DNA of 30,721 nucleotides, taken from a virus. The position numbers and the translations under genes are program-made. Shown one piece after another: positions 15,540-29,943 of the stretch. The notes under the pieces are model-generated. The model did no database searches, was not told the DNA's origin, and was given only the letters and a program-made list of their open reading frames with translations. The first letter of the stretch is position 1; each line of letters begins with the position of its first letter. The stretch lies in the IMG/VR virus record IMGVR_UViG_3300030430_000942, positions 1 to 30,721 of that record; one strand, given 5' to 3'.

Positions 15540-16495
15540 TACTGCAATCCTCCATGAGCATTTGAACAACCAGAACAGATTTGTCTACCTTCAGTTAAGT
15601 CCCCAAAGTCTGTTGCATTCCCTAAAGAAGCAATTGCAACTTTATCTATAACATTTGATGTTGCTCCATTAGGGTCTCCTCCTGCCCAAAAACCAGTTGT
15701 ATTGTTTGAAAAAGATGCAAAACTCTTTCTTGATTGACTTAAATCACCAAAGTCTTGTGCATTACCTGCTGATGCTATTGTAATATATTGAATGACGTTT
15801 GTTGTAGCTCCTGACCCATCACCCCCTCCAATTAAACCTCTGGTTGAACTTGAACAAGCTCCAAGAGTCATATCTGCAGCAAGTAAATCACCAAAGTCTG
15901 TAGCATTACCTGCTGAAGCTATAGTTATGTAGTCTATAACATTTGATTTAGAACCTGTGTAACCTCCTGATAAAGTTCCTCTAGTAGGACTTGCCGAAGC
16001 ACCACTTTCAGAACCTCTCGCTATAGTTAAATCGCCAAAGTCAGTACTATTACTTGTGCTTGCTATGGTTATGTACTCAATTACATTTGTATAAGCACCA
16101 CCAGAATAACCCAAATTAATAATACCTCTGGTTGAACTACTTGACCCACTACAAGTACTAGCTGTTGCAGATAAATCTCCAAAATCTGATAAAGTTCCTG
16201 TTGATGCAAAAGTTGAATACTGTATTACATTTACTGTACCTCCTGATGTTCCACCCCCTGCAAATACCGCTCTTGTTGAAGAACCTAGTGCAGCAAAACC
16301 ATTAGCTGCAGCTAATAAGTCACCAAAATCAGTAGCATTTGATGATGCAGCTGTATTAATAAAATCAATAGTTGCACTATAAGGATTATCTCCTGCAACT
16401 AAAGCAAAACCAGAACCTAAAAATTCAGCCCACCTATCACCTTTAACAGCCACGCCTTGTTGTCTTAAATCCCATACTCCAGAAAAATTAGGCAT
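15539..16495 (-). CDS. Kelch-like six-blade beta-propeller tail protein, copy 2
   Basis: This 318-residue protein has a GGAG ten bases before its ATG. It begins MPNFSGVWDLRQQGVAVKGD and then shows six repeats ending in ATDFGDLLAA, LSDFGDLSA, STDFGDLTIA, ATDFGDLLAA, AQDFGDLSQ and ATDFGDLTEG. The C-terminal SNAHGGLQ aligns with the HGGIA ends of copies 1 and 3 and could supply the strand that closes the ring. Copies 1-3 are clear paralogues: their repeat cores are near-identical, while N-termini and inter-strand loops differ. They may form alternative or stacked fibre subunits. Confidence 0.75.
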   Translation of the reverse strand: MPNFSGVWDLRQQGVAVKGDRWAEFLGSGFALVAGDNPYSATIDFINTAASSNATDFGDLLAAANGFAALGSSTRAVFAGGGTSGGTVNVIQYSTFASTGTLSDFGDLSATASTCSGSSSSTRGIINLGYSGGAYTNVIEYITIASTSNSTDFGDLTIARGSESGASASPTRGTLSGGYTGSKSNVIDYITIASAGNATDFGDLLAADMTLGACSSSTRGLIGGGDGSGATTNVIQYITIASAGNAQDFGDLSQSRKSFASFSNNTTGFWAGGDPNGATSNVIDKVAIASLGNATDFGDLTEGRQICSGCSNAHGGLQ

Positions 16496-16511
16496 TATTA
16501 AATATCTCCAT

Positions 16512-17726
16512 TTAAGATGCTATCCCACCATGAGCTACTGATGTTCCTCCAACAGAACTATTAAAACCTGATCTTGTAACATCTGCCCAATTTGTTGTGT
16601 TACCTGTGCTTGCAAATTGCACTGTTTGTATTTCTTTTGTTTGACCAAAGAAAATAGCACCAAACCATCTTGTTGTGCTTGAAACTCCTGCAAAAACATC
16701 TCCTTTGGCTACTACTAAATCACCAAAGTCAGTGGCATTTCCTGCACTCGCTATGGTAATGTAATCCATAGTATTTACAGTTGAACCAGGAATATTACCA
16801 CCCCCCACAATCGACCTTGTTCTATTTGAATGTCCTGAAGATGCCTGTGAACGAGCTTGTGTCAGATCTCCAAAGTCAGTGGCATTACCAGTAGATGCAA
16901 TGGTAAAATAATCGATAATTTCTGAAGTTCCAAAACCGGTTGTGTACCCACCTGCATTTATGCTTCTAGTGTCAGAATTTCCAGAAGTAGCTTGATAACT
17001 TGCTCTAGTTAAATTTCCAAAAGTTGTTGCATTACCAGCAGATGCAATGGTAATGTAATCAGATACATCTGCACCTGTAAATCCACTTGGCGTATATCCA
17101 CCACTAAATATCCCTCTTGTTGCGTTATTTGTTCCTCTACCACCAAGCCTTCTTGTTGATAATTCACCAAAACTTGTTGAACTTCCACCACTTGAAGTTG
17201 ACCAATATTCTAAATATTTACCTGCATCAGCATCAGGACTAAGACCTTTTTCAGCAACCATTCTTGTTAAATTTGATATTGCATAAGGCGTACTAATACT
17301 ACCACCTGCACTAAAATCAGCAAAAGATGTAGTGTCAGATTGAGAACTCATATTAAATTTATCAATATACGTATTTTGAGCAAGTAAAAAAGCAAAAGTA
17401 GATTCTGCAGGAGTTGCTGAACTAGATGCACTATAAGGACTTGAACCAAAGGCATTGTTTGCTAAACCTGTTACAGAATAACTTGTGTCATTAGTCAAAC
17501 CTGTAATGGTAACAGGACTTGAGGAACTTGTTGCTCCAGTAGATACTCCACTTGCTATTGCTGTTGCTGTATAGGAACTAATATCACCACCACCAGTATC
17601 TGATGGATTAGTAAAAGCTACACTAATTTCTGTATCACCTGCTGTAACACTTATTGTAGGTGCATCTGGTGCTCTTAGTTGATCAAAGCCCCCTAAGGCT
17701 CCTCCCTTTGGTCTATTCTTACCCAT
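16512..17726 (-). CDS. Kelch-like six-blade beta-propeller tail protein, copy 3, with N-terminal fibronectin type III domain
   Basis: This 404-residue protein has AGGAA six bases before its ATG. Residues 20-107 form a fibronectin type III domain: APDAPTISVTAGDTEISVAF, then GGDISSYTATAI, ITGLTNDTSYSVTGLANN and the closing SATPAES. Six kelch-like repeats follow. The sixth reads TTNWADV with the kelch Trp, and the C-terminus SVAHGGIAS matches the ends of the other copies. FN3 domains in phage tails commonly act as spacers or carbohydrate-adhesion modules. The gene opens the three-copy array and presumably yields the longest fibre subunit. Confidence 0.78.
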   Translation of the reverse strand: MGKNRPKGGALGGFDQLRAPDAPTISVTAGDTEISVAFTNPSDTGGGDISSYTATAIASGVSTGATSSSSPVTITGLTNDTSYSVTGLANNAFGSSPYSASSSATPAESTFAFLLAQNTYIDKFNMSSQSDTTSFADFSAGGSISTPYAISNLTRMVAEKGLSPDADAGKYLEYWSTSSGGSSTSFGELSTRRLGGRGTNNATRGIFSGGYTPSGFTGADVSDYITIASAGNATTFGNLTRASYQATSGNSDTRSINAGGYTTGFGTSEIIDYFTIASTGNATDFGDLTQARSQASSGHSNRTRSIVGGGNIPGSTVNTMDYITIASAGNATDFGDLVVAKGDVFAGVSSTTRWFGAIFFGQTKEIQTVQFASTGNTTNWADVTRSGFNSSVGGTSVAHGGIAS

Positions 17727-26112: not shown

Positions 26113-27024
26113 TTACGCACCTGGTGAACCAAAAACACAACGAGGATCTGAAAAACCAAAAGAATATCTTTCTCTGGCTTTGTACCTCATGTTTCCAGTA
26201 TCAAAGTCTGCTTCCATATTAGTGGATAAACCAAGACGCTCAAAGTGGATAAATCCTCTTGGTGCATCTGTTAAGATAAAGAACGCATCTGGATCTGTTA
26301 AGAAGTCATTAACAGCATAGCCATTTGGTAACATTCCCATAGATCTTATTGCGTTTGTATCGTTATCAGCTGTACCAACTCTAAGATTTGAAACCATTAA
26401 TCTTTCAGCAATAAATTGTAACTGCCTTGGAATAATTAGTTTTAATCCTCTTAAAGCTACTTTCATGCCACGCTCATCAACAAAACCTGCGATGTTAATC
26501 AAAGCATCTTCAAGAGATGTTTCGTTCAAATCTGCGGCTGTGCTTGGTTCGTTAGCAAAAGTACCACCATTTGTTAATGGATGAGAAGCATCACACAATG
26601 CCACGCCATCTCCACCAGCTGAAGCACCTGCTGTAAACGCATTGTTTAATATAGCAGCGGCTTTAACTTGCTTTGTGTGTGCCATTGAACGAGCTAATGC
26701 TCGAGTATACCTTGATCCAAGTCGATCATATAGGTTATCCTCTACTGCTTCTTCAGTAATTGAAAAAGCTAATGCAATAGTCTCGTGATTATAACGAGCC
26801 GTAAATGCCTCGTTTGCATCATCAAAACTTACAGCTGAACCCTCTGATTTAGTGGGTGCAGCACCAAAACCTGATAACATTACTTCTTCTTCAAATGCAC
26901 GATCTGAAGATTCAGTTGTATAGATTTCAGCATGTTGATTTTCGTACCGATCATACTCCATTCCAAATAAAGCGTTAAGACCGGGTTCTAGCTCTTTAGC
27001 TAATTGTGCTCTAGATATAGCCAT
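26113..27024 (-). CDS. Major capsid protein (HK97-fold, Mu gpT-like)
   Basis: This 303-residue protein follows AAGGAG. It shows the pattern of Mu gpT-type major head proteins: an N-terminal helix (AISRAQLAKELEPGLNALFG), a spine-like LAFSITEEAVEDNLYDRLGS with RYTRALARSMAHTKQVKAAA, the loop ALCDASHPLTNGGTF, the A-domain LEDALINIAGFVDERGMKVA with LRGLKLIIPRQLQFIAERLM, and a C-terminal RYSFGFSDPRCVFGSPGA. The scaffold-like and 211-residue accessory genes lie upstream and the terminator immediately downstream, as expected for an abundantly made capsid protein. Confidence 0.85.
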   Translation of the reverse strand: MAISRAQLAKELEPGLNALFGMEYDRYENQHAEIYTTESSDRAFEEEVMLSGFGAAPTKSEGSAVSFDDANEAFTARYNHETIALAFSITEEAVEDNLYDRLGSRYTRALARSMAHTKQVKAAAILNNAFTAGASAGGDGVALCDASHPLTNGGTFANEPSTAADLNETSLEDALINIAGFVDERGMKVALRGLKLIIPRQLQFIAERLMVSNLRVGTADNDTNAIRSMGMLPNGYAVNDFLTDPDAFFILTDAPRGFIHFERLGLSTNMEADFDTGNMRYKARERYSFGFSDPRCVFGSPGA

Positions 27025-27689: not shown

Positions 27690-28151
27690 TTAATCGGAAT
27701 CGCCTTTGGCTCCTCCGAAGGTTACACGACTTTGCCTACTATTCGTAATAGGCATTGAAGGATGTTGTTCCTTCATTAGGTCCTGATCTACAGCTGACAT
27801 TTGTTCTCGGGTTCGGCCCCCGTAATACTCGTTTCTTTCCTGTGCTGTTTCTTCAGGAATACGACACAACATCAATCCACCTTGTCCTATGACTCCTTGA
27901 TATTGACCATCATCAATAACAGGTGCTTCAAAGTTAGGATATTCATCTGAACGGACAGGTTCCCATCCTTCACGTAGTTTAGCATGAACATTCATTTTGT
28001 CCTCTTCTCCACGCATTGCGACTCTTATCCATCTATGCACAAAACCTTGAGGAGGTTCTGGTGCTTCAAGGTGACTTGGAGGTGTCCAGGGTTTTCTGCG
28101 TAACTGTGTTTCACGTGAAACATCTTTACGTGTGGTTCTTGTTTCTGTCAT
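27690..28151 (-). CDS. Conserved-type head-module protein; carries a parS site
   Basis: This 153-residue protein has an AAGGAG ribosome binding site. Its N-terminus is Arg/Thr-rich and Pro-rich (RKPWTPPSHLEAPEPPQGFV), followed by HRWIRVAMRGEEDKMNVHAK and LREGWEPVRSDEYPNFEAPV. The C-terminal part has GGLMLCRIPEETAQERNEYY and a flexible tail. I have seen this WIR...GEED..NV...LREGWE pattern beside capsid genes in marine phages without known function. It lies between the scaffold and decoration-like genes. Codons 10-15 (DVSRET) contain the perfect parS palindrome, near the start where protein constraint may be low. Confidence 0.7.
   Translation of the reverse strand: MTETRTTRKDVSRETQLRRKPWTPPSHLEAPEPPQGFVHRWIRVAMRGEEDKMNVHAKLREGWEPVRSDEYPNFEAPVIDDGQYQGVIGQGGLMLCRIPEETAQERNEYYGGRTREQMSAVDQDLMKEQHPSMPITNSRQSRVTFGGAKGDSD
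28107..28122. promoter_or_regulatory. Perfect parS (ParB-binding) site
   Basis: TGTTTCACGTGAAACA is a perfect 16-bp palindrome identical to the bacterial parS consensus, at which ParB loads and spreads as a CTP clamp. It lies inside the 153-residue gene (codons 10-15). A chance perfect match in 31 kb is about one in 10^5. No ParB gene is visible in the window. Confidence 0.85.
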
Positions 28152-28153
28152 AT

Positions 28154-29056
28154 CTACTCCTTCACATACTTAGCGTATTCTTCAAGAGGTACGCCAAGCT
28201 TTTTAGCGATAGCTACCTGAGAAGGTGATAGCTTGACCGTCCTACGCTTCTGGTTATTACTGCGAGATGCGGAGTTCCCAGCAGAAGCGACCTGGGTACT
28301 ACCATTCGTTTTCTTTTTCGTTTGGAATTTATGTGGAAATTCCGCACGTATTCTTTTATCTATTTCACTATAGTACTCTTCTGAGTTTGCGTCAAACCCT
28401 TCTTCGTTTGTAAGCATATTATGTATAGTAAAAGTAGCTGTTGTCATTATTTGATCTTTACCAAACCAACTGTTTTCATCAGCCCATTGTTGTGCTCTTG
28501 GATCTACTTTAGCTGGCTGTTGTACTTGTGGTTGTTGAGCTTGTGGTTGAACTTGAGCTTTAGCTTGTTGTTGAGCTTTAGCTTGTTGATCTATTCTCAT
28601 CTTTGCAGTGTTATAATTTTGTTGCTCTACTGCTATAGCAGCCATAGCTTGTTGAGCTTCCGCCATTTTTGCAGCATTACCGGCAGCATAAGCGTCTGTA
28701 TAAAGTTTTTTAGCTTGTTCTGCTTGTGCTTGAAGCCTAGTTCCATACTCTGCTACATACCCTGTATCTAAATTTTTAACTCTAGCTTGGAGTTTTTTAT
28801 TATCTTCCATAAGTTTTTGAGAAAGAGCCACAGCTTCTTGTTTATCTCTTTCTTCTTGACGATACTTTTCAGTAAGTTTTTTTATTCTATTCTGAACATT
28901 CTTACTATATGATTCTAATTCGTCTTCAGTTTTAGTTTCTTTTTCTTCTGAAACTTCAACTTTTGGTGGTTCCTGTTGTTCTTCTGACACCTGTTCAACA
29001 ACTAATTCTTCTTGTTTTTCTTCTACTTTTTCTTCTACTTTTTCTGCTTCAGCCAT
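28154..29056 (-). CDS. Scaffold-like head assembly protein
   Basis: This 300-residue protein lies two genes upstream of the major capsid gene, on the same strand. The N-terminal 45 residues are very acidic and Glu/Val-rich (EKVEEKVEEKQEELVVEQVS). A long charged coiled-coil follows (QNRIKKLTEKYRQEERDKQE), then an Ala/Gln-rich helix and a QQQAKAQVQPQAQQPQVQQ linker. The C-terminal basic part ends LSPSQVAIAKKLGVPLEEYA. That composition and position are typical of capsid scaffolds. The C-terminal 'L.PSQ.AIAKKLGVP.E.Y' helix is common in such proteins of marine phages and probably contacts the capsid. Confidence 0.82.
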   Translation of the reverse strand: MAEAEKVEEKVEEKQEELVVEQVSEEQQEPPKVEVSEEKETKTEDELESYSKNVQNRIKKLTEKYRQEERDKQEAVALSQKLMEDNKKLQARVKNLDTGYVAEYGTRLQAQAEQAKKLYTDAYAAGNAAKMAEAQQAMAAIAVEQQNYNTAKMRIDQQAKAQQQAKAQVQPQAQQPQVQQPAKVDPRAQQWADENSWFGKDQIMTTATFTIHNMLTNEEGFDANSEEYYSEIDKRIRAEFPHKFQTKKKTNGSTQVASAGNSASRSNNQKRRTVKLSPSQVAIAKKLGVPLEEYAKYVKE

Positions 29057-29064
29057 GATTACAC

Positions 29065-29544
29065 CTATACGTTTTTAACATCATCTGGATCAAGGATTGT
29101 AGCAATGACTTCATCATCATTGATAATACGCACTTCTCCTCCATCAATTTTAAATCTAGATCCAGAATATCTTCCTATACAGATCCATTGTTTTTCTTGA
29201 CACCAAGGTTTATCGCCATACTTTTCTTTGTCACCATAAGCTAATGGACCTACTTTAAGAACGTAGGCTACAACTGTAGCTATAGATTCTCTTTCTCTAA
29301 CCTCATCTGGAACGTAAATACCACCAGATGTTTTAGCTTTACCTTGATATGGCATAACTAAAATTCTCCAACCAGTTGGTTGAGGTAGTCTTTCTAGTAA
29401 TGATTTAGTTAGAAGAGATGGATCTAAAACTCGATTTCCTGGTTCAACCCAAGGCGTGTCTTCAGTTAGTGAGTTTTGTACTGCTTTTTTATTTTTTTCT
29501 ATTTCCTTTTTAACGTTTTCAGGAACGTAAAGTGTCTTCGTCAT
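29065..29544 (-). CDS. GroES/Cpn10-like co-chaperonin
   Basis: The ATG at 29544 is the best start (159 residues). It overlaps the preceding gene by 26 bases, and its nearest GGAG is 13 bases away. Residues 53-155 match the Cpn10 fold: PQPTGWRILVMPYQGKA, mobile loop KTSGGIYVPDEV, then ATVVAYVLKVGPLAYGD, ICIGRYSGSRF, and RIINDDEVIATI at the C-terminus. The hydrophobic tripeptide that touches GroEL (Ile-Val-Leu in GroES) reads Ile-Tyr-Val. The 50-residue N-terminal extension (YVPENVKKEIEKNKKAVQNS) is absent from GroES. It lies before the scaffold and capsid genes, so it should help the host GroEL fold capsid protein, as T4 gp31 does. No GroEL is present here. Confidence 0.85.
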   Translation of the reverse strand: MTKTLYVPENVKKEIEKNKKAVQNSLTEDTPWVEPGNRVLDPSLLTKSLLERLPQPTGWRILVMPYQGKAKTSGGIYVPDEVRERESIATVVAYVLKVGPLAYGDKEKYGDKPWCQEKQWICIGRYSGSRFKIDGGEVRIINDDEVIATILDPDDVKNV

Positions 29545-29731
29545 AATCGCTATTATTCTCCAGCATGGTCTTGATTTCCTCACGTGCAAGAGAAAGACCA
29601 CGTATTTCTCCTACCGTCATTTTGTACTCTTCCCAAGTTTTAACTCCACCAGCGGAAAGTGCAGAGGTTAGATTTTCTTCCCTCTCTTTTAACTTATTAT
29701 ATAAATATTTCGAGAAGTCAACAACATCCAT
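29519..29731 (-). CDS. Small helical protein preceding the co-chaperonin
   Basis: This 70-residue protein starts at the ATG at 29731, with GAGG nine bases upstream; an in-frame TTG at 29746 would consume that signal. The sequence DVVDFSKYLYNKLKEREENL with TWEEYKMTVGEIRGLSLARE is helical and acidic and may form a coiled coil. It overlaps the co-chaperonin gene by 26 bases. I recall similar 70-residue proteins near head genes in marine phages, with no known function. Confidence 0.62.
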   Translation of the reverse strand: MDVVDFSKYLYNKLKEREENLTSALSAGGVKTWEEYKMTVGEIRGLSLAREEIKTMLENNSDYDEDTLRS

Positions 29732-29742
29732 ACAATTATACC

Positions 29743-29943
29743 TCAAGTTTTTTTATCAAGGAGTATCTCCTGACATAAAGGTTTCACGTGAAACACTACA
29801 GGGTTTCTTAAAAGTATATTGGCTTTTTTGATGGAAACGTCAAGACATAGCTCTAATGTTTCATGGAACTCCCAGTTTCTAGTAACTACCATACAACTTT
29901 CAGCATACACACTAGAACACACAAGTAAGATAGGCATCCACAT
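29743..29943 (-). CDS. Small Cys-rich secreted protein; carries a second parS site
   Basis: This 66-residue protein has a signal-peptide-like start (MWMPILLVCSSVYA, then ES, with a VYA cleavage-like site) and four Cys (9, 17, 33, 57). Three of them would fall in the mature part. The body (TRNWEFHETLELCLDVSIKK, NPVVFHVKPLCQE) is mixed. It starts two bases after the stop of a 52-residue basic gene without a strong ribosome binding site and ends at the SD of the next gene. Position after the endolysin suggests a periplasmic or spanin-like lysis accessory, but this is not shown. Codons 50-55 contain the second parS core. Confidence 0.6.
   Translation of the reverse strand: MWMPILLVCSSVYAESCMVVTRNWEFHETLELCLDVSIKKANILLRNPVVFHVKPLCQEILLDKKT
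29781..29794. promoter_or_regulatory. Second parS site (14-bp core)
   Basis: GTTTCACGTGAAAC is a perfect 14-bp palindrome. Read on the - strand with its flanks it matches 15 of the 16 parS consensus positions. It lies about 1.7 kb from the first site, inside the Cys-rich gene, in a different reading frame relative to codons (VFHVK rather than VSRET). Confidence 0.8.

Follow-up and report, generated by a model that had tools for sequence, protein, structure and literature searches.

The window, the whole stretch of 30,721 nucleotides analyzed here, is a 30.7-kb piece of a viral genome. It carries a head module in which the GroES-like gene, the scaffold-like gene, the phrog_36003 gene and the major head protein gene (Table 1) are homologous to and collinear with those of the Pelagibacter phages HTVC023P and HTVC027P. 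The GroES-like gene is a marker of the HTVC023P-type head module, and the phrog_36003 gene is flanked by the scaffold-like gene on one side and by the head genes on the other. The window is a fragment of a marine podovirus of the HTVC023P/HTVC027P type, and this likeness points to SAR11 as the candidate host of the phage. Genomes of the HTVC023P type have a mean length of ~59 kb (PMC9599517). No match to TerL is found in the 30.7-kb window. A 75-aa ORF (positions 29519-29746, minus strand) weakly matches the RecBCD-inhibitor family of T7 gp5.9, with an E value of 0.0018, which is under the curated cut-off.

Table 1. Positions in the window of the two parS sites and of the genes around them.
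Feature	Position	Strand	Remarks
Major head protein gene	26113..27024	-	phrog_371, E=3.5e-22; next downstream
153-aa gene	27690..28151	-	phrog_36003, function unassigned; holds site 1 in codons 10-15
parS site 1	28107..28122	.	TGTTTCACGTGAAACA, perfect 16-bp palindrome, exact match
Acidic scaffold-like gene	28154..29056	-	phrog_28737; between the two parS sites
GroES-like co-chaperonin gene	29065..29601	-	phrog_3188, E=1e-14; Pfam Cpn10, E=6e-9; neighbors both sites
66-aa small ORF	29743..29943	-	holds site 2 near its C-terminus
parS site 2	29780..29795	.	GGTTTCACGTGAAACA, perfect 14-bp core, 15/16 of the consensus

The first-pass annotation had described site 1 as an exact parS consensus and a full 16-bp palindrome inside a phage head-module gene. 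Both parts of this description are borne out, as 16 of 16 positions match and the site lies in the phrog_36003 gene of the head module. Judged by these letters, site 1 is a genuine chromosomal-type parS. It is read as D-V-S-R-E-T within the N-terminal codons of the 153-aa gene. The second site had been overlooked, and it is read as F-H-V-K in the 66-aa ORF. The 14-bp core is thus observed twice in the window, compared to 6.8e-5 occurrences expected from a first-order Markov model and 1.4e-5 from a third-order model. The reversed palindrome has zero occurrences in the window.

The 80 nearest relatives of the 153-aa gene were fetched (76-90% identity), and parS is found at the exact position of site 1 in none of them. 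The homologous stretch in these relatives typically reads A-T-R-E-T. In the loci L123 and L124, the place of site 1 is occupied by GTC TCA CGA GAA GCA, and parS is lost there. Absence from close relatives had been named earlier as a finding that would speak against the site, and the missing exact site first resembled such a refutation, until other positions were looked at. In the three nearest relatives fetched (L123, L124 and L126), a core parS lies upstream of the gene, 0.8-1.6 kb from its start, and parS is also present upstream of terL in a sister clade (see below). The absence therefore stands for the exact position of site 1 and not for the presence of parS nearby.

The positions differ among the relatives. 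The core in L123 and L124 is identical to that of the window and is found at the place of site 2 only. In L126, ATACATCATGTTAAAC replaces parS at the place of site 2, and a perfect parS is located in the N-terminal part of the scaffold-like homolog (EDVSRETPE), where it again encodes V-S-R-E-T. The scaffold-like homolog of L009 has a perfect parS at codon 162. The 66-aa ORF has homologs in L123/L124 (68% at the amino acid level) and in L126 (65%), and it is for this reason regarded as a real gene. Between the window and L123, this gene has 26 identical codons, 20 synonymous changes and 21 non-synonymous changes. The eight codons over site 2 (V-F-H-V-K-P-L-C) are all identical to those in L123/L124, and synonymous differences are found in 20 of the 38 other codons with identical amino acids; the chance of eight unchanged codons over the site is ~0.6%, by a hand count. 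The earlier proposal to check whether the site is kept while the codons around it vary thus has a split outcome, with site 2 frozen relative to L123/L124 and site 1 lost in the relatives. On this pattern, the presence of parS is kept and its position shifts over ~3 kb, as for a binding site under turnover.

For the sister clade, the terL gene of the parS-bearing locus L084 was used as the query, and TerL similarity was the sole criterion for fetching 80 loci, regardless of parS. A perfect 16-bp parS is located 31-132 bp upstream of terL in 41 of these 80 L084-type loci, with the qualification that the query contig was picked for its parS and that those of the 80 that are near-copies of it cannot be counted as independent. 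There is no perfect parS elsewhere in the 570 kb of these loci, with 0.003 cores expected, and the near-complete carriers in the clade have exactly one parS each. A perfect site is missing from the other 39 loci, in a few cases owing to the contig end; two of those without it, L559 and L562, have the variant TGTTCCACGTGAAACA. After removal of near-copies, 16 parS copies with more than 25% flank difference remain. All 16 positions are invariant among them, and the flank positions mostly have 0.1-0.8 bit, with a maximum of 1.3. A structure in the RNA was considered for the palindrome and rejected by argument, as the stem of a hairpin would tolerate paired changes and none is found among the 16 diverged perfect copies. 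The identity of these copies to chromosomal parS disfavors a hairpin as well.

A variant of parS, GTTCCACGTGGAAC, is the second commonest 14-bp palindrome in the terL clade, at a distance of 23-24 bp from parS and with the order of the two swapped in L532/L539. A second palindrome, TGTTCCACGTGGAACA, is found in 12 loci (L532, L539, L540, L545-L547, L550-L554 and L560), located 23-24 bp from the perfect parS and 52-76 bp upstream of terL. The order of parS and this palindrome is swapped in L532 and L539. This palindrome is probably another site for ParB, with a variant sequence. In the TerL tree, which is a fast tree and takes in contigs chosen for parS, at least eight changes across strongly supported branches are required to explain the label 'parS near terL', so that the feature would have been gained or lost repeatedly. 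A set of parS-less loci (L526-L531, L541-L544, L578, L588, L589 and L592) has in common an element of roughly CATGTTTCTCNCAAATATT, ~90-100 bp upstream of terL, which may be a promoter or a binding site of another kind.

Proximity to terL is ruled out as a family-wide rule by the HTVC027P-type clade. None of 80 HTVC027P-type loci has parS within 400 bp of terL, and CGTTTCACGTGAAACA is found 3.5-5.3 kb upstream of terL in five of them. The sites of HTVC027P and G069 are located kilobases from terL. In the isolate HTVC027P, the core parS is at position 16413, between annotated genes. An unannotated 123-aa ORF (16216-16587) spans this parS; its homolog in L104 (3445-3810) has parS 40 bp past the ORF. 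The ORF over the HTVC027P site resembles small nucleases of the VRR-NUC type.

When the family was surveyed by other genes, over 1.49 Mb, parS was found seven times (one site being counted twice), compared to a mean of 0.017 for 420 palindromes of the same letters. Among ten marine isolates checked, parS is present in HTVC027P only. No site is found in the Roseobacter phages CRP-901/902 or in DSL-LC04, 023Pt_psg01, MinM2, HTVC100P, HTVC010P, Skadi-5 and HTVC023P. With many relatives lacking it, the site is not essential. Taken with the invariant copies of the sister clade, the pattern of conservation indicates that the 16 bp are under selection as DNA in this phage group, with their position free to move.

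The feature is not peculiar to the phage of the window and recurs in many phages. The 16-bp parS has at least 120 matches in IMG/VR, compared to one and seven for two control palindromes matched in composition. In the annotated phage collection it is found in 286 records (824 strand-wise places, ~412 sites), and neither of the control palindromes is found in any. Among the carriers are Listeria P100-type phages, Bacillus phi29-like phages (B103, with one site at 15611, Goe1 and BSP11), Lactobacillus, Gordonia, Microbacterium and Arthrobacter phages, and microviruses. Ruegeria phages have three parS sites. The inovirus PQ006149.1, with a genome of 5.9 kb, has six core sites between positions 636 and 5642, four of which start within ~20 bp past annotated gene ends. 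Filamentous phages persist in dividing cells, and partition could therefore matter for this inovirus. In Vibrio phage phi 3 (KP280063.1), a perfect parS (2934-2949) is located in the left terminal repeat, the physical end of the genome. No phage named after Escherichia, Salmonella or Klebsiella is found among the matches listed, which is a lead only, there being no denominators. Enterobacteriaceae have no ParABS on their chromosomes.

In the 120 IMG/VR contigs listed, 46% of 156 sites are in predicted genes, compared to 84% of positions drawn at random from those contigs (p=9e-28). Across viral contigs, parS is displaced out of genes. Of the in-gene sites, 53 are read in the V-S-R-E-T frame and 19 in the F-H-V-K frame; in the remaining frame, a TGA stop would result. 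A homolog of the L084-type TerL is found in at least 26 of the 120 contigs listed, which makes the podovirus group a large contributor.

No match to ParB (TIGR00180, PF02195) or ParA (PF13614) is found in the window, in the complete HTVC027P or in the near-complete relatives, and HTVC023P is negative for TIGR00180 and PF13614. Three of 50 parS-bearing IMG/VR contigs, many of which are fragments, have a ParB match, in all cases weak and in none over the cut-off. The window, itself incomplete, and the complete HTVC027P thus have a parS in cis and no detected ParA or ParB of their own. It is extremely improbable on these results that the sites serve a ParB or ParAB encoded by the phage, as in plasmid-prophages, although chromosomal-type parS otherwise accompanies ParB and some phage-plasmids encode ParABS. 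The scan for partition genes in the phage and its relatives, which the first-pass annotation had proposed, has detected none. Its suggestion of a plasmid-like prophage is left unsupported, as the complete relatives have neither parA nor parB. Its other suggestions are all directed at the ParB of the host (hijack, SMC loading, decoy), and they form a reasonable family of explanations for a phage lineage with no detectable ParA or ParB.

The candidate hosts have the components in question. A single ParB, of canonical type, is matched in all three SAR11 genomes tested, and ParA is also present. Of 15 SAR11 assemblies, not all of which are complete, 10 have a single core parS and none has more than one. 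In four SAR11 loci (L325-L328, core at 1501), parS falls within the N-terminal portion of rsmG, next to parA, and encodes V-S-R-E-T, the same peptide in the same frame as site 1 of the window. In an alignment with Caulobacter ParB (PDB 6t1f), the SAR11 protein has kept R173 and G201 and has a lysine in place of R204, one of the residues by which the Caulobacter protein contacts parS. R173 and G201 are the specificity pair of ParB for parS (PMC7383237).

The palindromes are probably working parS sites that are bound by the ParB of the bacterial host. As far as sequence can tell, such binding is favored by the perfect parS, its excess over chance, the selection at the DNA level and the failure to find a reader of the phage's own. 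Against it are the lysine at R204 of SAR11 ParB and the many relatives with no site, and the sites immediately ahead of terL would fit operators equally well. In established ParB biology, the protein loads at parS as a CTP clamp and spreads, and ParA-dependent movement and SMC loading follow. During infection, the host ParB clamp would load at the phage parS and spread from there along the phage DNA, by which the phage would gain the machinery that the host uses to handle its own chromosome. The likely benefit would be ParA-driven positioning or separation of the phage genomes, or loading of SMC condensin, which would prevent tangles in the replicating phage DNA, or both. This would amount to centromere mimicry, with a cis-acting site, usually one per phage genome, served by the trans-acting system of the host. 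One site per near-complete genome of the terL clade places the element nearer to a centromere than to a sponge.

Two other roles are serious rivals, and sequence alone cannot tell them from recruitment of the host system. In one, host ParB or some other palindrome-binding protein would occupy the site as an operator and regulate neighboring late genes such as terL. The short distance to terL in the 41 loci of the sister clade and the placement of four of the six inovirus sites just past gene ends are in line with this role, as is the repression by ParB of promoters adjoining parS that is reported for Pseudomonas aeruginosa (PMC5521831). In the window and its nearest relatives, however, the sites are intragenic and change position over ~3 kb, those of HTVC027P and G069 are far from terL, and a match to chromosomal parS at all 16 positions would be needless for an unrelated regulator. 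An operator is on balance unlikely. Somewhat less likely still is a decoy, in which parS on replicating phage DNA would titrate host ParB off the single chromosomal parS and stall segregation and division to the advantage of the phage. The SAR11 chromosome has at most one core parS, so that a few phage genomes would outnumber it, and both the two sites of the window and the six in 5.9 kb of inovirus DNA agree with titration. On the other hand, more sites would titrate better than the single one in each near-complete genome of the terL clade, and a decoy does not require a fixed location upstream of terL.

The sites might also be a by-product of coding, with the codons for V-S-R-E-T or F-H-V-K happening to spell parS. 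The homologous stretch of the relatives reads x-T-R-E-T, so that few base changes separated the window gene from parS at this point, and the in-gene position is not conserved. For site 1 alone, chance is possible. For the phage group it is contradicted, by two cores in the window where 6.8e-5 are expected, by the absence of synonymous divergence over site 2, by the invariant intergenic copies in the sister clade and by the permuted palindromes of the 1.49-Mb census, and as a general account it is very unlikely.

Recruitment of host ParB, the reading preferred here, could reach well beyond this podovirus. It is conceivable, though we hold it with some doubt, that the universal bacterial centromere sequence has been acquired independently, as a cis-acting signal, by many unrelated phage groups, lytic ones apparently among them, that the ParB-CTP clamp, ParA and SMC of the host position, organize or protect their replicating genomes, and that host ParB serves phages generally as a host factor. 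Few DNA-marking systems of bacteria are as conserved as ParB-parS, and no discussion of it as a phage host factor was found in the searchable literature. The surprise is at the level of the group, in that a perfect host centromere sequence is kept by phages with no detectable partition genes. If true, the reading would provide a cis-element explanation for the positioning or untangling of lytic phage genomes and would link chromosome segregation to infection. Laboratory pairs such as B. subtilis and phi29-like phages are suited to direct testing.

Several known systems can be compared with the phage sites. The parS of chromosomal ParABS, with the consensus TGTTTCACGTGAAACA, has the same 16 bp as site 1. 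The phage parS differs in being on a virus genome with no parA or parB, away from oriC, and in or beside late genes. Phage-plasmids such as P1 also have a centromere-like site on a phage genome. However, ParA and ParB are encoded by the P1-type elements themselves, which also have a parS sequence of their own; none of these is found in the lineage of the window. Noc is a ParB paralog that binds a similar palindrome, NBS. In comparison, the sequence in the window is parS and not NBS, and SAR11 ParB has the parS-type residues R173 and G201.

The open-access full-text literature, the coverage of which is incomplete, yielded no account of lytic phages with a chromosomal parS. Hijack of a partition system through parS is already known for a mobile element, and use of the ParB of the host chromosome by a phage was not found in the literature searched. 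The known case is SGI1, which has parS-like sites that hijack the ParABS of an IncC plasmid, with a gain in stability for SGI1 and harm to the owner of the system (PMC10954446). As proposed for the phage, this element carries the cis site only and uses the ParA and ParB of another replicon. SGI1 is not a virus, and its partner is the ParB of a helper plasmid, whereas the putative partner of the phage is the ParB of the host chromosome. The principle of parS hijack has in SGI1 a precedent that was shown by experiment.
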